This document shows positions 8,732 through 19,557 of a stretch of 64,000 nt of DNA, one piece after another (positions within the stretch are counted from its first letter, which is position 1; each line of letters starts with the position of its first letter). Made by a program: the position numbers and the translations under genes. The notes under the pieces are model-generated. The model was not told the DNA's origin. It did no database searches and worked only from the letters and a program-made list of their open reading frames with translations. The DNA comes from Acidovorax sp. 69 (GTDB lineage Bacteria; Pseudomonadota; Gammaproteobacteria; Burkholderiales; Burkholderiaceae_C). Location: positions 310,001 to 374,000 of the forward strand of contig NZ_PGEP01000001.1 in assembly GCF_002797445.1 (NCBI RefSeq), written 5' to 3'.

Positions 8732-9418
8732 ATGGAGTTTGTGCAAAGTGCCGATTTCTGGATCGGCCTGATGAAGATCGTCTGGATCAATATCATTCTG
8801 TCGGGTGACAACGCGGTGGTCATCGCGCTGGCAGCCCGATCTCTCCCTCCCCATCAGCAAAAGAAAGCCGTCTTCTGGGGCTCGGGCGCTGCTGTGGTGC
8901 TGCGGATTTTGCTGACCGTCGTGGCAGCCAAGCTGCTGGAGTTGTCCTTTCTCCAGATTGTGGGCGGTTGCTTGTTGCTGTGGATCGGGTTCCAGTTGCT
9001 CAGCGAAGAGGATGAGGACGAAGGCGAATCCAAGACCTATGGCAGTCTGATGGCGGCGGTTCGCACCATCCTGATTGCCGATCTGGTCATGAGCCTGGAC
9101 AACGTGATTGCCGTGGCCGCTGCCGCACAAGGCAACGTGATTCTGCTGGTACTGGGCCTTGCCATCAGCATTCCCCTGGTGATCTTTGGCAGCACGCTCA
9201 TGATCAAACTCATGGAGCGTTTCCCCTTCATCGTGGTGCTGGGCGCTGCGCTGATCGGTTGGGTGGGCGGTGAAACCATCGTCAGCGATGCCATCTTGCA
9301 TGACTATGCTGTGGCACATCCTGCACTCCATTACGTCGCTGCTGCCCTGGGTGCGGCACTGGTGGTGGGTGTGGGCAAGTTCTGGCCGTCGAAGGCCCGC
9401 AAAGAGTCTGCCACCTAG
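8732..9418 (+). CDS. TerC-family integral membrane protein (first copy)
   Basis: About 228 aa from the ATG at 8732, preceded by GTGGAG. TerC/Alx-type proteins have seven or more membrane segments. Several members export manganese or load it into exoenzymes. The metal-site motifs are present: ILSGDNAVVIALAAR in the first half and IADLVMSLDNVIAVAAAAQ in the second, in the internally duplicated arrangement of the family. An acidic cytoplasmic loop EEDEDEGESK separates the halves. A second TerC gene lies at 26.2-26.9 kb with a manganese riboswitch. This copy has no visible riboswitch. Confidence 0.9.
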   Translation: MEFVQSADFWIGLMKIVWINIILSGDNAVVIALAARSLPPHQQKKAVFWGSGAAVVLRILLTVVAAKLLELSFLQIVGGCLLLWIGFQLLSEEDEDEGESKTYGSLMAAVRTILIADLVMSLDNVIAVAAAAQGNVILLVLGLAISIPLVIFGSTLMIKLMERFPFIVVLGAALIGWVGGETIVSDAILHDYAVAHPALHYVAAALGAALVVGVGKFWPSKARKESAT

Positions 9419-9431
9419 GTCTGGAATACAA

Positions 9432-9463
9432 GTCACATGGACAGCCATCGCTGTCCATGTGAC
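9432..9463 (+). terminator. Perfect 14-bp hairpin after terC
   Basis: GTCACATGGACAGC-CATC-GCTGTCCATGTGAC is a perfect 14-bp stem with a 4-nt loop. It starts 13 bp after the terC stop codon. It is followed by AAAAATGG rather than a T-run, so it is not a textbook intrinsic terminator. It would still be a stable 3' end or a pausing/RNA-protection structure between terC and the signalling operon. Confidence 0.5.
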
Positions 9464-9615
9464 AAAAATGGCACCATCCTCTGCGCAGATCTGTGCCAAT
9501 CCGACAAGAACGACATGGAGCCTGGGCTCCAGCATCGCTTTGGGCCACTGGCGGTCTCTGCGGGGCTTGAATAACCTGGGCGTAGATATTGCTTGATTGA
9601 CTGCTCATTACCTGA

Positions 9616-12294
9616 GTGGAACAACAGCAAGTGGGCAGAAAAACCTCGGCGCGGCGGCTTGATTTATGGCGTACCGATGGCTTTTTGAGCGCACTGGCGG
9701 CGCTCGCAGTGGCGGCCGTCTGCTTGGCCACAGGCATGTCCCAGCGCCTGGACAACGCGCTATACGATGCTGCCGTCAGCACCTCTGCCCCGCCCCCCCT
9801 GGCTGAAATAGCGATTGTTGGTATCGACGATGCCAGTCTGGCTGCTTTGGGCCCCTGGCCATGGACACGCGACATTCATGCGCGGCTGATTGACCAGCTG
9901 GCAACCGCTGGCGCTAAAACCATCGTTTACACCCCGTATTTCACTGAGCCGCAAGGCGATCGTGGGCTGGGATACGTCCGCAAGATCCGGGAAACATTGG
10001 CAAGTGCGGGGGATGGCTCTGCGCTGGCTGCGGAACTCAGCCGCATTGCTGCCGAGGCCGATATGGCACTCGACACCGACACACGCCTTGCCAGTTCGAT
10101 CCAGCGGGCTGGCAATGTGTTGCTGGCCTCGCGCTATTCGAACACCGGGGTGCCCACGCCTCTGCCGTCTTATGTGCGCCGCAGCGCACTGCCCGACCTC
10201 GGCAAATCTGCGACACCGGTTCAGTCGGCCCAACACCCCATCGCCATGCTTGGCGTGGTGGCTACCGGGGTCGGTCACCTGTATATCAATCCTGATCCGG
10301 ATGGCCGGGTCCGTGAGGTGCCCCTGATCCTGCGATACGACAACGTGGGCGTGCCGTCCCTTGCGTTGCTGGCAGCCCAGCACAGCCTGCACCTGGGGCC
10401 CGGTGACATACGTCCCCTGGATGCATCAGGGGGTCTGCGGCTGGGCGGACTGAACGTCGCCACAGACAGCGCGGCTGTTTTGCGCCCGCGAACGCAGGCA
10501 TTCCCGGATGGTTCGCCCCCATTTCCGGTGGCATCATTTGTCAGTGTTCTAGAGGGGAAAACCCCAGCCAGCCGCTTCAAGGACAAGATCGTGTTTGTGG
10601 GCGAGACCACCGAGGCTCTTGCGCCGGGCATGGTTCTGCACGCCGGGCGGGCAATCTACCCCGTCGATGTTTTGGCGCAGACCGTGTCTTCCATCCGTCT
10701 GGGTCTCAGCGTGCATGCGCCAGGCTGGGGTGTCATGGTCTCCTGGATGGTCTTTGCCGGGGCACTTCTCAGTGTGGCTCTGCTCGCGCCAAGAGCGCGT
10801 GGCCTGAAGGGCCTGGGCATCGGTGCAGCGTTGCTGCTGGTGCTTGTTGGCGCGCAGTGGACTTTGCTGCGCTACGTCGGCTTGTGGATTTCGGTGGTGC
10901 TGCCGGTCATGGTGCTGCTGGCGGGCTTCGTAGTCGGAGTCCTTCTTCAGGGCAAAAGCGGGTGGGGTGCATCGCCATCCGCTGAAGCTGCCGAAGCGGA
11001 CCGGATGATGGGTCTTGCCCTTCAAGGTCAAGGTCAGTTGGACATGGCTTTTGAGCGTCTGCGCAAAGTGCCTGCCAGCGACGCCCTCTTGGACAACCTG
11101 TACCACCTGGCGGAAGACTTCGAGCGCAAGCGTCATTTCGCCAAGGCCAAGGCTGTGTACGAACACATCCTGCGGCACAACCGCCAGTACAAAGACACCC
11201 GGAGTCGCTACAAGCGTGCATGCGCCCGTGCCCAGGGTGCAGACACAGCCAACAGCCAGCCGCCGACGCTGCCGCCGGTGGGTGCCAGCCTCCGGCTTCC
11301 CGGGGATGCCACATCCAGCGTACCCATGCTCGGCCGCTATCAGGTTGACCGCGAAATAGGCAAAGGGGCCATGGGGGTCGTCTATCTGGGGCGGGATCCC
11401 AAGATCGGTCGCGTGGTCGCCATCAAGACCTTGGCGCTGGGCCAGGAATTCGAAGGCGACGCGCTGATCGATGCCCGTTCCCGCTTTTTCCGCGAAGCAG
11501 AAACGGCAGGGCGCTTGCAGCATCCGAACATCGTGACGATCTTTGATGCCGGCGAGGAGCATGACCTGGCCTATATCGCCATGGAGTTCCTCAAGGGCCA
11601 GGACCTGACCCATGCCGCCAACAAAGAACACTTGTTACCCGTGCCTACCGTGTTGTCAGTCGCTGCCCGCGTGGCGGATGCGCTGGACTATGCCCACGCC
11701 CACAACGTGGTGCACCGCGATATCAAGCCAGCCAACATCATGTTTGACGGAGCCACCGACGCCGTGAAAGTGACCGACTTCGGTATTGCGCGCATCACCG
11801 ACTCCAGCAAGACCCGCACAGGGTTGGTCCTGGGCACCCCAAGCTTCATGTCGCCGGAGCAACTGGCGGGCAAGAAGGTGGATGGCCGGTCGGACCTGTA
11901 TTCACTGGGTATCACGCTGTTTCAACTGCTCACGGGCACCCTCCCGTTGCGTGGTGAATCCATGACAGAGTTGATGCACAAGATCGCGAACATCGAGGCG
12001 CCGGACATTCGCCAGCTGCGGCCTGATCTTTCGCCCGCCATTGCCAAAGTGGTCACACTGTCGTTGCAAAAACGCCCCGAAGCCCGCTACCAGACCGGCC
12101 GTCAGTTTGCCGCTGATCTGCGACAGGCCGCCGCTGGCCCGGCTCGCTCTGACAGTGCGCCCACGCCCAGGGCAGTGGTCTATGATGCGGACCGCGATGC
12201 AACAGGGCATGAGATGGCGGATTTTCAGGAAACCGTGATGGAGCCCCCCGCAGTTCGGGGAGCGGCAGTCCCGCCGATTTCAGGCGCCCAATGA
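9616..12294 (+). CDS. CHASE2-domain eukaryotic-like serine/threonine protein kinase
   Basis: 892 aa from a GTG start. An N-terminal membrane segment (about residues 22-40) leads into an extracytoplasmic CHASE2 sensor domain (about 45-350: RLDNALYDAAV, IAIVGIDDASLAALGPWPW). Three membrane segments follow at 370-445. A TPR-like helical linker (455-540) connects to a complete C-terminal Hanks-type kinase domain (574-840). The kinase has the glycine loop GKGAMGVV, lysine VAIK (604), HRDIKPAN (700-707), DFG (721-723) and an APE-like SPEQ. All catalytic residues are present, so it should be active. The stop overlaps the PP2C gene by 4 bp (ATGA), so the two are translationally coupled. The sensed signal is unknown. 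Confidence 0.93.
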   Translation: MEQQQVGRKTSARRLDLWRTDGFLSALAALAVAAVCLATGMSQRLDNALYDAAVSTSAPPPLAEIAIVGIDDASLAALGPWPWTRDIHARLIDQLATAGAKTIVYTPYFTEPQGDRGLGYVRKIRETLASAGDGSALAAELSRIAAEADMALDTDTRLASSIQRAGNVLLASRYSNTGVPTPLPSYVRRSALPDLGKSATPVQSAQHPIAMLGVVATGVGHLYINPDPDGRVREVPLILRYDNVGVPSLALLAAQHSLHLGPGDIRPLDASGGLRLGGLNVATDSAAVLRPRTQAFPDGSPPFPVASFVSVLEGKTPASRFKDKIVFVGETTEALAPGMVLHAGRAIYPVDVLAQTVSSIRLGLSVHAPGWGVMVSWMVFAGALLSVALLAPRARGLKGLGIGAALLLVLVGAQWTLLRYVGLWISVVLPVMVLLAGFVVGVLLQGKSGWGASPSAEAAEADRMMGLALQGQGQLDMAFERLRKVPASDALLDNLYHLAEDFERKRHFAKAKAVYEHILRHNRQYKDTRSRYKRACARAQGADTANSQPPTLPPVGASLRLPGDATSSVPMLGRYQVDREIGKGAMGVVYLGRDPKIGRVVAIKTLALGQEFEGDALIDARSRFFREAETAGRLQHPNIVTIFDAGEEHDLAYIAMEFLKGQDLTHAANKEHLLPVPTVLSVAARVADALDYAHAHNVVHRDIKPANIMFDGATDAVKVTDFGIARITDSSKTRTGLVLGTPSFMSPEQLAGKKVDGRSDLYSLGITLFQLLTGTLPLRGESMTELMHKIANIEAPDIRQLRPDLSPAIAKVVTLSLQKRPEARYQTGRQFAADLRQAAAGPARSDSAPTPRAVVYDADRDATGHEMADFQETVMEPPAVRGAAVPPISGAQ

Positions 12295-13100
12295 CGCTCG
12301 CCATAACATCCATGACCTACGAATTTACCGCTCGGACCGACAAGGGCCGCGTGCGCACCAACAATGAAGACGCTGTGGCGGTGGATCGCGACGCACAGAT
12401 CGCCATTCTTGCCGACGGCATGGGCGGATACAACGCTGGAGAGGTCGCTAGTGGAATGGCCACCACGTTCATCCGTACCGAGATGGCCCGCTGGCTGGCA
12501 CAAGCCGGGGCCACGCCACAATCCACCGATGTGCGCCGGGCTCTGGAAATTTGCGTGGAAAACGCCAACCACGCCATCCTGGGCGCGTCACTGTCCAACC
12601 CCCAGTATGCGGGCATGGGCACTACGCTGGTGGTGGCGGTGTTCCATGGCAGCCGTCTCATACTCGGGCACATCGGCGATTCGCGTTGTTACCGACTGCG
12701 CGACGGTGCATTGCAGCAAATCACGCGGGATCACTCGTGGCTGCAGGAGCAGGTCGATGCGGGGCTGCTTACCTCCCAGCAAGCGGCCCTATCTTCGAAT
12801 CGCAATCTGGTGACCAGAGCATTGGGCGTTGAGCCCAATGTGATGATGGAAGTCAACGAGTTCCAGGTGACACCCAGCGACCTTTTTCTGTTGTGCTCCG
12901 ACGGGCTCACGGACATGGTGTCGGACACCGACATCGCGGAAATGATGCGCGCTTCTCTGCCACTGGAGGAAAAAGCCACACTGCTCATCGACACTGCCAA
13001 TGCGAACGGTGGCCGTGATAACGTGAGCGTGCTGCTGGTGCAGGCTGCGGCGGGAGGCAAGAAACGCAGCCTCATGTCCCGATTGCTAGGGGCCTCTTGA
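12291..13100 (+). CDS. PP2C-family serine/threonine protein phosphatase
   Basis: 269 aa; an alternative ATG at 12312 (MTYEFTARTDKG) is equally plausible. The PPM/PP2C metal motifs are in order: RTDKGRVRTNNEDAV, ILADGMGGYNAGEVAS, LGHIGDSRCYRL, FLLCSDGLTDMV and GGRDNVSVLLV, giving the aspartates for the two-metal site. It should dephosphorylate the partner kinase and its substrates, making phosphorylation reversible. It overlaps the kinase stop by 4 bp and precedes the FHA gene by 41 bp. It resembles the stand-alone phosphatases paired with kinases in other FHA-containing signalling clusters. Confidence 0.95.
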   Translation: MTLAITSMTYEFTARTDKGRVRTNNEDAVAVDRDAQIAILADGMGGYNAGEVASGMATTFIRTEMARWLAQAGATPQSTDVRRALEICVENANHAILGASLSNPQYAGMGTTLVVAVFHGSRLILGHIGDSRCYRLRDGALQQITRDHSWLQEQVDAGLLTSQQAALSSNRNLVTRALGVEPNVMMEVNEFQVTPSDLFLLCSDGLTDMVSDTDIAEMMRASLPLEEKATLLIDTANANGGRDNVSVLLVQAAAGGKKRSLMSRLLGAS

Positions 13101-13141
13101 ATGGCTCAAACCACAACAATTCATCACATCAGGAGTAGATC

Positions 13142-13792
13142 ATGCCCAGAATGATCGTTTCAATCGACGGGGTCGTCATCAAGGAAGTGCAACTCACGAA
13201 GGAGCGGACAACGCTCGGTCGGCGTCCCTACAACGACATCGTGATCGACAACCTTGCTGTGAGTGGAGAGCATGCCGTGATCCACATGGAAGGGCATGAC
13301 GTAGAGATTGAAGACCTGGGGAGCACGAACGGCACCTACGTCAATGCCAAGGCCGTCAAGCGCCAGGAACTGCGCAATGGCGACACGGTAGAAGTGGGCA
13401 AGTACAAAATTCGATTCTTGCAGGAAGCCGAGGGTCAGAATTTCGAAAAAACCATGATCTTCAAGCCCGGCATGGTTCCGCCCATCGGCGCCGCCGCGCG
13501 GCCTTCGCCTGCTGCTTCTGCTCCCGTGTCCATCTCCGCGTTGATCCGGGTGATGTCGGGTGCGGCAGCCGGGCGCGAAGTGTCTCTACAAAAAGTGGTC
13601 ACCACCATTGGCAAGCCGGGTCTTGCTGTGGCTTCGATCACGAAGAGGCATCAAGGCTTTGTGTTGGCGCACGTGGAAGGTCCAGACATGCCCCTGCTCA
13701 ACGGAGCCGCCATTGGCGCCTCTCCGGTCCCGCTCAAAAACGGTGACCGACTGGAGTTGGCGGGTACCGAAATGCAATTCGAACAAAGCTGA
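13142..13792 (+). CDS. FHA-domain protein, probable phosphothreonine reader
   Basis: 216 aa. The N-terminal 90 residues are a canonical FHA domain: TLGRRPYNDIVIDN, VSGEHAVIHMEG, LGSTNGTYVN. The core G-R, S-x-x-H and N-G residues are present. The C-terminal half (about 135-216) has the same strand pattern in degenerate form: TTIGKPG, ITKRHQGFVLAHVEG, LKNGDRLELAGTEMQF. This looks like a second FHA fold that has lost the usual binding residues. Between them is a Pro/Ala linker preceded by KTMIFKPGM, which contains a possible threonine target. It sits between kinase/phosphatase and cyclase genes and probably relays the kinase signal. Confidence 0.92.
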   Translation: MPRMIVSIDGVVIKEVQLTKERTTLGRRPYNDIVIDNLAVSGEHAVIHMEGHDVEIEDLGSTNGTYVNAKAVKRQELRNGDTVEVGKYKIRFLQEAEGQNFEKTMIFKPGMVPPIGAAARPSPAASAPVSISALIRVMSGAAAGREVSLQKVVTTIGKPGLAVASITKRHQGFVLAHVEGPDMPLLNGAAIGASPVPLKNGDRLELAGTEMQFEQS

Positions 13793-13864
13793 CAAGCGGT
13801 GGCGGTTGGCGCCTTGTCGGCGTCAACTGTCAACCCCTTCACTCCATCACTCGCGGCCGGACTT

Positions 13865-16129
13865 ATGCGACAGCAGTTATCGCACTTGTTCCAGCGCCGC
13901 TGGCGGCGAATTGCTTTCACGCTGATTCCGCTCGTTTTTGCACTTCTGCACGTTGCGGATATCCTTCACCTTCAGGTCTTGGAGCGGTTGGACAACATCA
14001 TTTACGACACCCGGTTGCGGGTCACGATGCCCCGGACGCTGGATGAACGCATCGTCATTGTCGACATCGACGAAAAGAGCCTAGGCCAGATAGGGCAGTG
14101 GCCTTGGAGAAGGGACAAGCTGGCGACCCTGGTGCGCGAATTGTTCGAGAGGCAGCAGGTGTCTGTGATCGGGTTTGATGTCCTGTTCGCCGAAGCGGAT
14201 GAAAGCTCGGGCCTTTCCACACTCCAGCAATTGGCTCAAGGGCCACTCAAAGGGCAGCCAGGCTTCAAGGAACAACTGGCCCGCATCGCTCCGTCTCTGA
14301 ACTACGACGCACTTTTTGCGCAATCGTTGCAAGGGCGGCCGGTGGTACTGGGCTATTACCTTTCGGGCGACGACCGCGACGGAATCACCAAGGGAACATT
14401 GCCAAATCCGGCACTTCCCTTGACACATCTGAGGGGATTGCCGCTCATATCCACGTCCTGGAAAGGCTACAGCAGCAATATTGAAGGCTTGGCCAGTGCC
14501 GCGCCAGCGGCGGGTTTCTTCAACTCCATCACCGACGAAGACGGTGTGGTGCGATCCCTGCCATTGCTGGCCGAATACCAAGGGCAATACTACGAGTCCC
14601 TCGCTTTGGCCATGTTCCGCACCGTCATCGGCTCGCCGGAAATTCATCCAGGTTTTGCCAATGCCACACCCGGTGGCACCCATGACGCATTGGAAAGCAT
14701 CGTGTTGCGGGCAGATGGTCGTACGCTGGCGCTTCCCGTGGACCACCAACTTGCAACGCTCGTTCCTTACCGAGGCCCTGGCGATGCCAAGGGGGGATCG
14801 TTCCGATACATCTCAGCCTCCGATGTCCTGGAGGGCAGGCTGCGCGCAGGGCAGCTGAGAGACCAACTTGTTCTAGTGGGTTCTACCGCACCTGGCCTCC
14901 TGGACTTGCGCGTTACGCCTGTGGGCAGAGCGTACCCCGGTGTAGAAGCACATGCCAATGTCCTTTCCGCATTTCTTGACGGCAAGAACATGGTTCGACC
15001 TGACTACGCGGTGGGATTTGACGCTTTGCAATTGCTTTGCGCGGGCATCCTTCTGGCGGTCACCCTCCCCCTGCTGTCCGCACTGGCTGCGGTGTTGTTG
15101 AGCGCGGCGGTTGTGGGCACGCTGGTCGGCGTTAATCTCTGGCTTTATCTTGCACACGGACTGGCACTACCACTCGCCACTGCTGTGGTGATGGCGCTGT
15201 TGGCGTTCGCGCTGAACATGGCCTACGGTTACTTTGTGGAAAGTCGCTCCAAGCGGGAATTGGCGGCATTGTTTGGCACCTATGTTCCGCCGGAGCTGGT
15301 GGACGAAATGGTCAAGCAACCCGAGCACTACAGCATGCAGGCCACCAATCGCGAGCTGACCGTGATGTTCTGCGACATGCGTGGATTCACCGCGATGTCA
15401 GAGCGCATGGAGCCGCTGCAACTGCAGGCGCTGCTCAACGAGGTCTTCAGCAAACTTACCCATATCATTCGCAGGCACAAGGGCACCATCGACAAATACA
15501 TGGGGGATTGCGTCATGGCGTTTTGGGGTGCCCCTGTGGCGACACCGGAGCATGCCCAACTCGCAGTTTCGGCTGCCATGGAAATGGCGAACGCTATCGG
15601 AGAGATCAATGCAGATCACCGACAACGTGGTTTGCCCGAAATAGGGGTCGGTATAGGACTCAATACGGGTGTCATGTGTGTGGGCGACATGGGCTCTGAC
15701 ATAAGGCGCGCCTACACCGTCATCGGCGATGCCGTGAATCTCGGCTCGCGCCTGGAGGGGCTGTCAAAATACTACGGCACCTCCATCGTGGTGAGCGAAA
15801 GTGCAAAATCGCTGGCGCCTCAGTTTGCCTGGCAACAAATGGACTGTGTCCGCGTCAAGGGTAAAGCGCAGGCAGTGCCAATTTACCAGCCCTTGTCAAA
15901 GCTGTCCGACTTGCCGGACCGCCAAGTCCAAGAGCTTTCCGTATGGGCGCAATTTCTCACAGCCTATGGAGCGCAGGAATGGGCACAATGCGATGTACTT
16001 CTGACGCAGCTAAAAGAGTTTCAGCCCCATTCTGTCCTCCACGAGTTGTACGCATCCCGAATCGCCCACCTCCGATTGCAGCCTTTCAACGCGGCATGGG
16101 ACAGCGCGACCAATTTCGACACCAAATAA
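13865..16129 (+). CDS. CHASE2-domain class III adenylate/guanylate cyclase
   Basis: About 754 aa from the ATG at 13865; an in-frame GTG at 13799, 6 bp after the FHA stop, is possible. An N-terminal membrane helix precedes a CHASE2 domain (RLDNIIYDTRLRV, IVIVDIDEKSLGQIGQWPWRR). Two or three membrane segments follow, then a class III cyclase domain (about 490-665): LTVMFCDMRGFTAMSERM, then DKYMGDCVMAFWGAP, then IGDAVNLGSRLEGL. Both metal aspartates and the transition-state Asn/Arg are present. Lysine in DKYMGD and Thr in YTVIGD favour ATP as substrate. It shares its sensor type with the kinase at the head of the operon. Confidence 0.92.
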   Translation: MRQQLSHLFQRRWRRIAFTLIPLVFALLHVADILHLQVLERLDNIIYDTRLRVTMPRTLDERIVIVDIDEKSLGQIGQWPWRRDKLATLVRELFERQQVSVIGFDVLFAEADESSGLSTLQQLAQGPLKGQPGFKEQLARIAPSLNYDALFAQSLQGRPVVLGYYLSGDDRDGITKGTLPNPALPLTHLRGLPLISTSWKGYSSNIEGLASAAPAAGFFNSITDEDGVVRSLPLLAEYQGQYYESLALAMFRTVIGSPEIHPGFANATPGGTHDALESIVLRADGRTLALPVDHQLATLVPYRGPGDAKGGSFRYISASDVLEGRLRAGQLRDQLVLVGSTAPGLLDLRVTPVGRAYPGVEAHANVLSAFLDGKNMVRPDYAVGFDALQLLCAGILLAVTLPLLSALAAVLLSAAVVGTLVGVNLWLYLAHGLALPLATAVVMALLAFALNMAYGYFVESRSKRELAALFGTYVPPELVDEMVKQPEHYSMQATNRELTVMFCDMRGFTAMSERMEPLQLQALLNEVFSKLTHIIRRHKGTIDKYMGDCVMAFWGAPVATPEHAQLAVSAAMEMANAIGEINADHRQRGLPEIGVGIGLNTGVMCVGDMGSDIRRAYTVIGDAVNLGSRLEGLSKYYGTSIVVSESAKSLAPQFAWQQMDCVRVKGKAQAVPIYQPLSKLSDLPDRQVQELSVWAQFLTAYGAQEWAQCDVLLTQLKEFQPHSVLHELYASRIAHLRLQPFNAAWDSATNFDTK

Positions 16130-16145
16130 ATCAGCAAGGCACTAC

Positions 16146-16925
16146 ATGAAGGTTCGCGTGCTGGGTTGCTCCGGCGCTATCGCCAAGGACTGTCGTACGA
16201 CATCGTTCTTGATTGGGGACCGCATCCTGATCGATGCAGGCACTGGGGTCGGTGACCTCACGCTGGATGAAATGGGCAAGATTGACCATGTGTTCTTGAC
16301 GCACTCGCACCTTGATCACATCGCCGCCCTGCCTCTCATGCTGGATGCAGTGTCGTCCCTCAGGAAACACCCTGTCCAAGTTCACGCACTGCCCGAGACC
16401 GTTGAAGCGCTCCAGGCGCATGTATTTAACAACGTCATCTGGCCGGACTTCAGTGCCATTCCCTCTCCGGCGTCGCCGTTCCTGAAATATCAACCTTTCT
16501 GCACTGGCGAATCATTAATTGTCGAAGGTATCGAGATCGAAGTGCTGCCCGCCCGCCACACGGTACCGGCCGTTGGTTTTGCTGCGCGAGGAACTACAGG
16601 TTGGTGGGTATTCAGCGGTGACACCGAGCGCAATCCGCTTTTTTGGGACCGGATCAATCAGATGACTGTGGCTTGCCTCGTCATAGAAACCGCCTTCAGC
16701 AACCGCGAGTGCGACCTGGCTCGCCGCAGTCTACATTTGTCACCCGACACGCTGGCTCAGGAACTGGCGAACATCTGCCTCGCAAGTCGCTACCCCATCT
16801 ATGTGACGCACACCAAGCCGTCAGAAACCGGCCTAATCATGCAAGAGATTCGTCAATTTGATGCTGGCCAGGGCCGCGCCCATGACATACGCTGGCTGAG
16901 CGCGGGGCAGGCGCTGGAGGTGTAA
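16146..16925 (+). CDS. Class II cyclic-nucleotide phosphodiesterase (metallo-beta-lactamase fold)
   Basis: 259 aa. The metallo-beta-lactamase metal motif is FLTHSHLDHIAALPLM. Further ligands are likely in LPARHTVPAVGF, FSGDTE and VTHTKPS. The segment VIETAFSNRECDLARRS then HLSPDTLAQEL resembles the conserved C-terminal signature of class II cAMP phosphodiesterases (PDEase_II). It starts 16 bp after the cyclase gene, so synthesis and hydrolysis of the messenger are encoded side by side. A general MBL hydrolase is the alternative, but the context supports cyclic-nucleotide hydrolysis. Confidence 0.85.
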   Translation: MKVRVLGCSGAIAKDCRTTSFLIGDRILIDAGTGVGDLTLDEMGKIDHVFLTHSHLDHIAALPLMLDAVSSLRKHPVQVHALPETVEALQAHVFNNVIWPDFSAIPSPASPFLKYQPFCTGESLIVEGIEIEVLPARHTVPAVGFAARGTTGWWVFSGDTERNPLFWDRINQMTVACLVIETAFSNRECDLARRSLHLSPDTLAQELANICLASRYPIYVTHTKPSETGLIMQEIRQFDAGQGRAHDIRWLSAGQALEV

Positions 16926-17146
16926 CTCAATGCTGCTGCTGACATTCCTGACCGACAAAAATGTAAGTGACAACCATCAGCAGATGAAAGGCACTCCTGG
17001 CTGAGAATGACCAATCCAAATTTTTCGGAACGGGCAAGCGCAATGTCGCACAGACACTCTCACACCGTGCGCGCAATCAATGCGCTCCACGCCTCAAAAT
17101 GCCCTCAGCATGCTTGGATCGTTTTTTTGGCTTTGGTAAGTGGGCA

Positions 17147-17162
17147 TGGCACTTGCTTGGCT
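17147..17162 (+). promoter_or_regulatory. Sigma-54 (RpoN) promoter candidate for the pilin gene
   Basis: TGGCACTTGCTTGGCT has the invariant GG-N10-GC spacing and a perfect TGGCAC -24 element. The -12 element is TGGC instead of TTGC. It lies 35 bp upstream of the pilin ATG, a usual distance. Type IV pilin genes are classically RpoN- and PilR-dependent. Confidence 0.65.
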
Positions 17163-17196
17163 ACTGTGCATTTGCAACTTTTCCTAGGAGTTTTTC

Positions 17197-17706
17197 ATGA
17201 AGCGCACTCTGCAAAAGGGTTTTACCCTGATTGAATTGATGATCGTTGTTGCGATCATTGGTATTTTGGCCGCCGTGGCTCTGCCTGCTTACCAGGACTA
17301 CACTATTCGCGCTAAGGTGTCGGAAGTAATTTTGGCAGGCTCAGCATGCCGCACGAGTATTACGGAAACTGTTCAAACTATTTCGAGTTCAGTACTTCCA
17401 GCTGCCAACGCTTGGGGCTGCGAGCAGAATACTGCAGAAAGCACCTCCAGCAACCCAACCAAGTATGTGATGTCAATTATCACCACTGATGCTGGTCTTG
17501 TAACTATTCACACGACGGCTGAAGCCAGCCTGAAGGAAGCCGGCGATAAGGAGGTCATCATGACCCCTTTTAAGAAAACCGGCGCGACGACCTCCGCCGC
17601 TATCACCAATACAGATGTTAATATTACCGTCTATGAATGGAAGTGCGGTCCTGGCGGTGCAAAGCCAATGCCTGCGAAGTATCTGCCAGGTTCTTGCCGT
17701 GGTTAA
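17197..17706 (+). CDS. pilA: Type IV major pilin
   Basis: 169 aa. An eight-residue positively charged leader (MKRTLQKG) is followed by the prepilin peptidase site G/FTLIE and the hydrophobic helix [18 protein letters not shown], with Glu5 present. The pilin globular domain follows. Four cysteines are visible; the last two (EWKCGPGG and LPGSCRG) probably form the C-terminal D-region disulphide. The start is supported by TAGGAG about 8 bp upstream. The downstream oligosaccharyltransferase and the Ser/Thr-rich mature part suggest a glycosylated pilin. The gene is more A+T-rich than its neighbours. Confidence 0.96.
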
Positions 17707-17741: not shown

Positions 17742-17776
17742 AAACGGTGCGCTTAACAGCGCACCGTTTTTTTTTG
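17742..17776 (+). terminator. Rho-independent terminator after pilA
   Basis: AAACGGTGCGC (17742-17752) and GCGCACCGTTT (17759-17769) form an 11-bp stem with the loop TTAACA, followed by an uninterrupted T-run. This is the strongest terminator in the window. It lies 36 bp after the pilin stop and would keep the abundant pilin transcript short while allowing limited read-through to the ligase gene. Confidence 0.93.
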
Positions 17777-17796
17777 TGAATGTCAGTTATTTGAAT

Positions 17797-19557
17797 ATGA
17801 GGATTCTGGTGAAAGAAAAATTGCTGATGTGGGCAGGAGTGGTGTTATTTTTGAGCTATTTGCTGCCTAACCACTATTCACCTTGGCTGAGCTTTCATCA
17901 GGAATTGACGGCCGCAGTAGCCTTTGCGCCATTGCTTGCTTGGGCATGCACTCGGGTTGCTCCATTTCCCAAAATGGCCATGGGAGTAACAGCGTTAGCC
18001 GTGGTCCCCCTGCTGCAGATAGCAGGTGGACAAATCTATTTCGCCACCGATGGGTGGATGTCGAGCCTTTATCTGCTGGGGTTTGCTCTGGCTATTTACG
18101 CAGGCGCTTTGTACTACCGCACCGACGGGACCCACTTTGCGCCAGGCTCGCCAGGAAACATCCATGTGGAGCGTTCCCTTGGCTCCATTGAGAACCTGTG
18201 GGTTGCGATACTGATGGCAGCGTTGTGCTCGGCAGGGCTGGCTTTTCATCAATGGCTCATACCGAGCTACCAAGGCATTTACATCGTAGAAATACCGCCA
18301 CAAAGCCGTCCGTTTGCCAATCTGGCCCAACCAAATCAGCTGGCTACCTTACTGATGTTAGGTATTGCGGGACTTATGTTTGTATGGGAGACCCGCCGAC
18401 TGCGCGCACCTTTTGCAATGGCTGCAGCGTTCCTACTTTTGTGGGCCTTGGTAATGACCGGATCCAGGACGGTTCTAATGGCTCTGCTTTGGCTGCTGCC
18501 AGCATATGCGCTAATGCGGTGCCGGTGCAAACTGCGAACGACACCAGCAGCGATTGCGGCGGGTGTCGTTTTTTACTTCGTAATGACATGGCTATGGCCA
18601 TTATTGAGCGAATGGCTGCTCCTCAATTCAGGCAACAACACAGCTTTAGAGCGAATGGGCTCTATCGGAATTCGGAAAGTATTTTGGATCTCCATGCTGG
18701 ACGCCATCGGCCGCGCGCCGTGGCTTGGTTATGGGTGGGGACAAGTCAGCATTGCCCAAGTGACAGTGGCACTCGACCATCCACCCACTTACTCGCTATT
18801 CGAAAGTGCCCACAATTTGTTTATTGACCTGGCCCTTTGGAATGGGCTACCAATAGCGCTATTGATTTTTCTCGGAATCGGGGCCTGGTTTTTGGGACAA
18901 GTGCGCAATTGCAACAACGCGATGAAATGGGCCACATTGGTGGGAGTGGCGTTAGTCTTCAACCACGCCATGGTGGAGTACCCTTTGAACTACGCATATT
19001 TTTTATTGCCCGTTGGGTTTTTTATAGGAGCGCTGTCCACTTCGAATAATATGCCGATGCAGACATACGCGGTTTTTCCAACAGCGAAGAGACTTGGACT
19101 TTTGACCATGGGTGGCTTGATGTCTGCAGCGACGGTTTTAGTGGTCGTGGAGTATTTTCCAATAGAAGAGGACTGGAATCTGATGCGGTTTCAAGAAGCT
19201 CGAATTGGGAATCTTGAAGTCAAAGACACCCAATCATCCGCATTGGTCCTTACAGGGCTTCAACAATTCTTACGTTTCTCACGCACGGAAGCACGACCTG
19301 GAATGTCAGTCGATGAGCTAGACGCTATGCGTCGAGCATCGGAGCGATTTGCCTATGCAGCACCTATGTTCAAGTATGCATTGGCCCAAGCTCTCAACCA
19401 GCAACCAGAAAATGCACTCATAACACTGCGAACAATGTGCTCCATGCAAGTCGAGAGCGTGTGCCTCAGCGCAAAGCGCCAGTGGGATGAGCTTGGAAAG
19501 ACCGATTATCCAGAATTGGAAAATTTACCGTTTCCAAGCTTCGGTACAAGCCGCTGA
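17797..19557 (+). CDS. PglL/Wzy_C-type O-oligosaccharyltransferase, probably pilin-specific
   Basis: About 586 aa from the ATG at 17797. A GTG at 17776 abuts the terminator T-run, and a GTG at 17809 has a GAGG site, so the exact start is unsettled. The protein has about a dozen hydrophobic segments and the Wzy_C region: LMTGSRTVLMALLWLLPAY, WLGYGWGQ, then SAHNLFIDLALWNGLPIALL. A soluble TPR-like tail follows. Such enzymes transfer lipid-linked glycans to Ser/Thr of pilins in the periplasm. Its place right behind pilA argues for pilin as substrate. It is A+T-rich relative to the flanks. An O-antigen ligase/polymerase is the alternative reading. Confidence 0.85.
   Translation: MRILVKEKLLMWAGVVLFLSYLLPNHYSPWLSFHQELTAAVAFAPLLAWACTRVAPFPKMAMGVTALAVVPLLQIAGGQIYFATDGWMSSLYLLGFALAIYAGALYYRTDGTHFAPGSPGNIHVERSLGSIENLWVAILMAALCSAGLAFHQWLIPSYQGIYIVEIPPQSRPFANLAQPNQLATLLMLGIAGLMFVWETRRLRAPFAMAAAFLLLWALVMTGSRTVLMALLWLLPAYALMRCRCKLRTTPAAIAAGVVFYFVMTWLWPLLSEWLLLNSGNNTALERMGSIGIRKVFWISMLDAIGRAPWLGYGWGQVSIAQVTVALDHPPTYSLFESAHNLFIDLALWNGLPIALLIFLGIGAWFLGQVRNCNNAMKWATLVGVALVFNHAMVEYPLNYAYFLLPVGFFIGALSTSNNMPMQTYAVFPTAKRLGLLTMGGLMSAATVLVVVEYFPIEEDWNLMRFQEARIGNLEVKDTQSSALVLTGLQQFLRFSRTEARPGMSVDELDAMRRASERFAYAAPMFKYALAQALNQQPENALITLRTMCSMQVESVCLSAKRQWDELGKTDYPELENLPFPSFGTSR

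Follow-up and report, generated by a model that had tools for sequence, protein, structure and literature searches.

A 64,000-nucleotide stretch of the Acidovorax sp. 69 genome (contig NZ_PGEP01000001.1, positions 310,001 to 374,000; the window) contains five head-to-tail genes that encode a membrane CHASE2 Ser/Thr kinase (K), a PP2C phosphatase (P), an FHA protein (F), a CHASE2 class III nucleotide cyclase (C) and a predicted cyclic-nucleotide phosphodiesterase (M). Their co-occurrence and order, which the initial annotation of this DNA had proposed as a check, are conserved over many lineages, so K-P-F-C-M is a real, conserved unit, larger and more modular than first thought. With about even confidence, we read the five genes as the core of an envelope-sensing module, in which a phospho-switch formed by K, P and F would be tied to the turnover of cyclic AMP (cAMP) by C and M. 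Threonine motifs in F and K provide new sequence support for the phospho-link.

Conservation was first measured within the order, which we take by inference to be GTDB Burkholderiales. C, M and F were searched in a sample of 150 order genomes, and same-strand places at most 3 kb apart were joined into one cluster; the count includes 56 K rows, those matching the kinase domain alone having been dropped, and omits a few second-fragment F rows. K has a match at 1e-60 in 81 of the genomes, and in 50 the match reaches the CHASE2 part with E < 1e-177. Same-strand K-F-C-M clusters number 37 and are spread, by our reading of the search tables, over 18 numbered families. Partial clusters comprise F-M (12), C-M (12), K-F-M (5), K-F (5), K-F-C (2), F-C-M (2), K-C-M (1) and F-C (1), and solitary places are found for K (6), C (20), M (35) and F (31). 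Contig ends explain several incomplete clusters (in genomes G010, G052, G091, G103 and G131), and 3 of the 12 C-M pairs are cut in this way. P precedes F in all 12 F-M clusters. At the 56 order-level K loci, K, P and F occur together in 48 and all five genes in 37, with median gaps of 8 (K-P), 35.5 (P-F), 51 (F-C) and 15 bp (C-M). Scattering of the genes, the case that the initial annotation had set against its own proposal, is seen in some genomes (G022, G069 and G113): the parts are dispersed yet present, with K near sucCD, P-F-M together and C elsewhere. The closest members of the window's family also vary. G133 has sucD-terC-P-F-pilin at the corresponding position but lacks K, C and M, and in G093 F adjoins a pilin gene within the 8 kb examined; neither F has the linker motif described below.

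The class and phylum samples (274 and 299 genomes, both containing the window's own) have K matches at 1e-100 in 64 and 68 genomes, respectively, the latter mostly from one family. Loci were taken from 40 of the 64 and 20 of the 68. The class-level loci contain K-P-F in 34 cases, C in 17 and M in 3; the phylum-level loci contain K-P-F in 12 and C together with M in 1. The trio that stays constant beyond the order is thus K-P-F, which bears out the statement that kinase/phosphatase/FHA sets recur. C is convergent with F in 9 of its 17 class-level loci, runs in the same direction in 7 and is upstream and divergent in 1. On the module's C model these cyclases reach 747-1100 bits, compared with 340 and 147 for L003 and L002, the other CHASE2 proteins of the window's genome; the window K itself scores 420 bits on this model through its CHASE2 part. 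By a rough estimate rather than a computation, chance alone would place C at most 19 kb away in a few per cent of cases, given a 3-Mb genome that carries up to five cyclases.

A third set, the named loci, consists of 80 loci kept of 360 M relatives. Having been selected through M, it leans to the window's own family; its closest members belong to Acidovorax, Hydrogenophaga, Polaromonas, Ramlibacter, Variovorax and other Burkholderiales. The arrangements are K-P-F-C-M (20), P-F-C-M (13), P-F-M (13) and K-P-F-M (4), 14 loci have a partial K match followed by P-F-M, and 16 are cut or odd. Two of these 14 (L301 and L305), scanned with Pfam, have a kinase domain and no CHASE2. Loci are called kinase-less when the fetched upstream stretch has no kinase match, and some of them are cut upstream; no kinase is seen upstream of 35 F loci for which over 2.5 kb of preceding sequence was available. 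Because P-F-M persists without C or K in this M-chosen set, C is dispensable. The balanced messenger loop of cyclase and phosphodiesterase that had been proposed is therefore not supported, since loci that lack C still have M together with P-F. Variovorax loci (L267, L274, L276, L277, L279 and others) keep P-F-C-M with no kinase nearby and no linker motif. In one metagenome bin (L233) the C frame lies in three pieces, reflecting frameshifts or sequencing errors.

The linker of F varies in sequence and length, apart from a conserved stretch, F-E-K-T-M-[IV]-[LI]. Its threonine is T in 45 of the 47 order-level F sequences having that column. The strict motif is found in 135 of 177 F proteins (window 1/1, order 51/62, class/phylum 40/46, named loci 43/68), and in the tree set 130 of 167 carry it, against a mean of 0.135 in shuffled linkers. 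A relaxed pattern matches about 22 of 167 shuffled linkers, so our claims use the strict pattern. The F alignment omitted 26 of the 68 named-locus sequences, 23 of them motif-less, and its invariant Thr104 is thus not counted as evidence. K, whose sequences were taken for the final counts by model-based extraction, carries a comparable site, [ML]-[SE]-E-T-[VI]-[IM]-L-G (SETVILG), directly ahead of the kinase domain; 89 of 131 proteins have it, against 0.095 in shuffled sequence (order 44/51, named loci 19/24, window 0/1). Of the 34 K proteins with a tail longer than 25 residues, 21 have FEKT-like sites in it, against 1.6 when all tails are shuffled. Four named loci (L229-L232, two Acidovorax and two Burkholderiaceae bins) resemble the window in having no linker site and a tail site F-Q-E-T. 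A K site and an F site are present together in 77 of 112 loci. The strict motif is practically absent from C (1/103), M (1/147) and P (0/180), and absent from the neighbouring ATPase (0/73), HD-GYP (0/40) and cyclic-nucleotide-binding (0/13) proteins described below, so any effect of phosphorylation would go through F. Docking of F on C or M via the threonine motif was also considered and is unsupported by these counts.

The strict motif accompanies the operon kinase: 115 of 134 F proteins with the kinase have it and 15 of 33 without (Fisher 4e-6 on plain counts). A kinase part was also sought elsewhere in the genomes of 21 kinase-less named loci, with 3 operon-kinase loci as controls. Three of the 5 motif-bearing loci have an unlinked kinase part at 4e-61 or better, and the one associated with L263 is 66% identical. 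Among the 16 motif-less loci, 8 genomes lack any match at 1e-30; in the other 8 the best one is 5.7e-67 (L240, where F still reads FEKTMVA). Parsimony of kinase and motif loss is unstable, with 8 apparent kinase gains. The overall pattern fits, short of proof, a kinase that acts on this threonine.

The domain assignments are supported by Pfam and structural matches. K matches CHASE2 (142 bits) and Pkinase (179 bits). P matches PP2C_2 (66 bits) and passes the NCBIfam Stp1/IreP PP2C model (251.9, cut-off 230). F matches FHA (PF00498, 78.5 bits), and profile comparison identifies its C-terminal half as a degenerate FHA-like domain (probability 97.7%, E 1.5e-12); its best 120 homologues listed are 84-92% identical, several labeled Acidovorax. 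C matches CHASE2 (197 bits) and Guanylate_cyc (PF00211, 93 bits) as well as class III cyclase structures in the PDB, including the CyaB structure 3r5g. M matches Lactamase_B_2 (57.8) and PDEase_II (43.7, cut-off 23.7), the latter over positions 82-143 of the 340-position profile only. The best solved relative of M is 4ojv, 3',5'-cyclic-nucleotide phosphodiesterase 1, which we take to be the yeast enzyme; the stretch HVFNNVIWPDFSA in M corresponds to HVFNDLIWPDLTA in 4ojv.

The open reading frames and Pfam matches agree with the initial annotation on the head-to-tail arrangement, the domains, the overlap and the gaps (see table). Its statement that the enzymes retain their catalytic residues holds for all motifs listed here: GKGAMGVV, VAIK, HRDIKPAN, DFG and SPEQ in K; DGMGG, GDSR, SDGL and GGRDNVS in P; FCDMRGF, DKYMGD and YTVIGDAVNLGSR in C, which provide the metal, substrate and transition-state residues of class III adenylate cyclases; and HSHLDH (the zinc motif), ARHT, SGDT and THTKP in M. 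The FHA motifs of F (GRR, VSGEH and STNGT) are likewise intact. Relatives of K keep HRDxKxxN and DFG in 140/140, those of P keep GDSR in 176/180, those of C have K-[YF]-x-G-D in 101/103 and the first metal motif, as matched by the search pattern, in 93/103, and those of M have the WPDF signature in 147/147 and THxH[ML]DH in 134/147. The Lys of DKYMGD and the Thr of YTVIGD in C are presumably adenylate-type substrate residues; they point to ATP as the substrate, and production of cAMP is predicted. Two membrane sensors of the same CHASE2 type had been proposed. Both proteins do contain CHASE2, and the sameness of type is weak: the CHASE2 regions of the window K and C are 28% identical (about 85 bits), against 67 bits for K and the paralogue L002, and they fall in separate clades. 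A single ligand for both sensors, which we considered, may exist, though their CHASE2 regions are hardly closer to each other than those of K and L002.

Features of the locus, with positions in the window
Feature	Position	Strand	Description
K, membrane CHASE2 Ser/Thr kinase	9616-12294	+	892 aa, GTG start; from open reading frame list, Pfam and motifs; CHASE2 at residues ~30-385, kinase domain 575-826, then C-terminal tail
Tail site of K, DFQETVMEPPA	12220-12252	+	FHA-motif-like threonine site, the sole one in the window K
P, PP2C (Stp1/IreP-type) phosphatase	12291-13100	+	269 aa; overlaps K by 4 bp
F, FHA protein	13142-13792	+	216 aa; 41-bp gap after P; FHA domain at the N terminus (residues 23-86), then a linker that varies and a second, degenerate FHA-like domain (~145-215)
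Candidate phospho-threonine switch motif of F	13442-13462	+	Residues 101-107, FEKTMIF; Thr104
C, membrane CHASE2 class III nucleotide cyclase	13799-16129	+	776 aa; 6-bp gap after F if the GTG start is used
M, predicted metallo-beta-lactamase-fold class II-type cyclic-nucleotide phosphodiesterase	16146-16925	+	259 aa; 16-bp gap
Type IV pilin	17197-17706	+	Neighbour outside the five; occupies the place of the GAF-MshEN-T2SSE ATPase of many relatives
Wzy/O-antigen-ligase and PglL-type protein-glycosylation ligase	17776-19557	+	Neighbour outside the five

Clustering of the flanking genes reveals recurrent neighbours, and the self-contained circuit of the initial annotation is not borne out: in many relatives the locus also includes a pilus-type ATPase gene, frequently along with one for an HD-GYP or a cyclic-nucleotide-binding protein. 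A GAF-MshEN-T2SSE ATPase follows M in 46 of the 59 order loci with a downstream gene available, and the open frames are separated by about 1 bp (median); P-F-M-ATPase loci without K and C also occur. The one representative tested scores under the cut-offs of PilB (483 vs 676), GspE (437 vs 630) and TfpB (382 vs 850), and the protein is therefore named PilB/GspE-like only. Its GAF domain is closest to the adenylate cyclase GAF 1ykd (E 3.7e-26), and phosphodiesterase GAFs are also close; GAF domains of these cyclases and phosphodiesterases bind cyclic nucleotides. A GAF-HD-GYP gene is present in 33 clustered loci (25 order, 8 class/phylum). M is fused to a GAF-HD-GYP protein in L051 (14854-17235, by Pfam) and L052 (read from sequence), which is predicted to place a cyclic-nucleotide phosphodiesterase and a cyclic di-GMP (c-di-GMP) phosphodiesterase in one chain. 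A cyclic-nucleotide-binding and rhodanese protein occurs in 9 clustered loci and in 13 of all loci scanned (L048 and L170 checked with Pfam), and is a candidate cAMP receptor. Its gene stands after M in L036, L047, L048, L050, L074, L075 and L078, and upstream of K in L153, L157, L160, L165, L167 and L170. The window's genome encodes 13 cyclic-nucleotide-binding and 5 class III cyclase domains, so other receptors and sources of cyclic nucleotides exist.

From the observed gene content, order, conservation, motifs and recurrent ATPase neighbour, we propose the following phosphorylation, binding, enzymatic and regulatory steps. K would detect a periplasmic cue through CHASE2 and autophosphorylate on the threonine of the linker before its kinase domain or, in the window's lineage, on the tail (DFQETVMEPP). 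The phosphorylated site would recruit the FHA domain of F, and K would next phosphorylate Thr104 in the F linker. The phospho-linker could then fold back to the FHA domain of the same F molecule, in the manner of GarA/OdhI, and so switch F's partner; P would reset both K and F. The partner is most likely the neighbouring cyclic-nucleotide branch, M first and C second, in which C would make cAMP on its own CHASE2 cue and M would remove it. In many relatives the ATPase after M, a motor of the type IV pilus or type II secretion type, may read the signal, its GAF domain reading cAMP. We infer control of cyclase, phosphodiesterase or motor by the switch from this arrangement. An extended version describes an envelope-to-pilus locus of a kind not described before: the CHASE2 kinase and FHA switch would set cAMP turnover, and the output would drive a pilus or secretion motor, with GAF reading cAMP, MshEN possibly reading c-di-GMP and GAF-HD-GYP trimming c-di-GMP. 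Ser/Thr phosphorylation, cAMP and c-di-GMP would then meet in one locus, a proposal that we regard as tentative.

Several observations weigh against coupling of the switch to cAMP turnover and the motor. M stands alone at 35 of its 104 places and C at 20 of its 75, so neither enzyme requires the switch. Of 167 F proteins, 37 lack the motif or have an altered form, and on the P tree motif loss differs only weakly between kinase-less branches (6 of 40) and branches with kinase (14 of 256; p 0.04); full motif loss, by the all-loss count, is found in only 5 of 15 kinase-loss clades. L254 and L288 have the F motif and no kinase match at 1e-30 in the genome, and P is kept in kinase-less loci. The K linker site is present in just 26 of 55 class/phylum proteins, and its presence is only weakly associated with that of the F site (p 0.04). 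The window K lacks the linker motif, and its tail version ends in E rather than L/I. At the K site, four relatives carry Ser instead (ESMIF, ESMVF), and binding of Ser sites by FHA domains is not known. Finally, just 23 of 72 named loci and 0 of 4 class/phylum loci have the ATPase after M, and in the window the pilin gene stands there instead. The nearest ATPase relative in the window's genome, L311 (G000:C1:4764172-4766070, 633 codons), lies away from the locus and aligns to model positions 236-798 only, that is, without the GAF part.

Two other arrangements of the same parts deserve consideration, and we regard each as possible, though less probable than the coupled module. The five genes may represent two independent devices in one operon, a GarA-like K-P-F switch with remote targets and a C-M cAMP device, sharing transcription and perhaps a cue. 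The existence of C-M without K-P-F and of K-P-F without C-M fits this view, as does the near absence of the threonine motif from C, M and the ATPase; on the other hand, P-F-M stays together without C, and the presence of C near K-P-F in several orientations outside the order is unexplained by co-transcription alone. Alternatively, and on a similarly doubtful footing, the branches might converge only on the ATPase, with F binding or releasing the motor and cAMP binding its GAF domain while phosphorylation leaves cyclase and phosphodiesterase untouched. The frequent position of the ATPase directly after M in order loci, including P-F-M-ATPase without K and C, and the resemblance of its GAF to that of 1ykd favour such convergence, which fails for the window and for 49 of 72 named loci and finds none of the shared motif in the 73 ATPases.

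The remaining alternatives concern what M and the trio do. M could act on another cyclic nucleotide or on an RNA end rather than on cAMP, in which case a messenger loop would be wrong. M has an RNase Z-like score of 52 bits, under the cut-off of 293, and fails the NCBIfam cyclic-nucleotide phosphodiesterase model cyc_nuc_deg_phdiest (31 vs 400), which presumably represents Rv1339. Its PDEase_II match lies above the Pfam cut-off, however, the stretch LPxT...LQxHVFNxxIWPD is common to M and 4ojv, and C-M pairs recur, so we consider a different substrate improbable. A relic of the type VI secretion phospho-pathway (PpkA-PppA-Fha) is far less probable still. The three protein classes match, and the PpkA/PppA/Fha logic is the one set out in the available part of PMC5995506; against this, F misses the TagH model (38.3, cut-off 120.25), and no type VI secretion gene was recognised among 25 neighbour clusters, just three of which were scanned with Pfam, in an analysis that did not extend to annotating the 64 kb for such genes.

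Around the five genes, a scan of 9350-17400 for sigma-70-like promoters gave 0 matches against 2.9 expected, and terminator-like sites in the same interval are not in excess (10 vs 6.6 +/- 2.8 expected), a result consistent with a single transcript, though no proof of it. sucC, sucD and terC lie upstream. A 14-bp inverted repeat at 9432-9463 between terC and K is terminator-like on the - strand and may separate K from terC. sucC/sucD stand near K in 14 of the 56 order loci, and sucCD and pilA are noted here as positional neighbours. In some order genomes (G014:C70, G045:C70, G062:C20, G095:C1 and others) a further FHA protein is encoded divergently from a kinase match; this is a different FHA-kinase pair.

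Judged by titles and abstract openings, literature on this gene combination, on CHASE2, on GarA/OdhI outside actinobacteria, on Rv1339-type phosphodiesterases and on the ATPase contains no description of the locus; our coverage is partial (few subscription papers and no preprints), and its absence is not established. If the module works as proposed, proteobacterial Ser/Thr kinases outside type VI secretion would gain a defined substrate, phospho-site and output, and bacteria would provide an example in which protein phosphorylation influences cAMP signaling via an encoded neighbour. Because candidate sites are named (Thr104 of F and the ET[VI] linker or tail site of K), the question is testable. 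The locus also offers an entry to the control of GAF-bearing PilB/GspE-like ATPases.

Among known systems, GarA and OdhI (of Mycobacterium and Corynebacterium) provide the best PDB relatives of the FHA domain of F. The likeness of the motifs, judged by eye, consists of E at -2, V/I at +2, a hydrophobic residue at +3 and R/K at +4 around the threonine; HMMER's own alignment of the GarA site VETTSVFR with the F motif yields just -0.6 bits. In OdhI, according to the available text of PMC10581250, Ser/Thr kinases write the phosphorylation and a phosphatase erases it. The motif is N-terminal to the FHA domain in GarA/OdhI and C-terminal to it in F, F carries a second, degenerate FHA-like domain, and it scores under the OdhI (73, cut-off 200) and FhaB (62.8, cut-off 125) models. 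GarA and OdhI are concerned with 2-oxoglutarate enzymes; for F, the sole point of contact seen is the position of sucC/sucD upstream in the window and near K in some order loci. The kinase itself differs from PknB/PASTA kinases, with 300 against an equivalog cut-off of 450 and no PASTA match. The TOMM kinase/cyclase fusion (TIGR03903) combines, by its model name, both activities in one protein, and its model is missed by K (126 bits) and C (30 bits) at a cut-off of 705.75.

In type VI secretion, the available portion of PMC5995506 describes a surface machine controlled by the Ser/Thr kinase PpkA, the phosphatase PppA and an Fha protein; the present module differs in having a CHASE2 sensor, a cyclase, a phosphodiesterase and, in relatives, a pilus-type ATPase neighbour. 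CyaD1, CyaD2 and CyaK of Sinorhizobium meliloti are CHASE2 adenylate cyclases with cAMP output, and the accessible sections of that paper mention neither a kinase-phosphatase-FHA trio nor a class II phosphodiesterase with them (PMC13001267). Rv1339, an atypical bacterial phosphodiesterase related to class II in the part of PMC9293780 available, shares the metallo-beta-lactamase fold with M and is separated from it by the low model score given above. A further parallel is the Pil-Chp/CyaB/Vfr pathway of Pseudomonas aeruginosa, which, as outlined in the accessible text of PMC11656802, carries an envelope signal via the adenylate cyclase CyaB to type IV pili; a histidine-kinase chemotaxis pathway operates there, whereas here a Ser/Thr kinase and an FHA switch would take its place.

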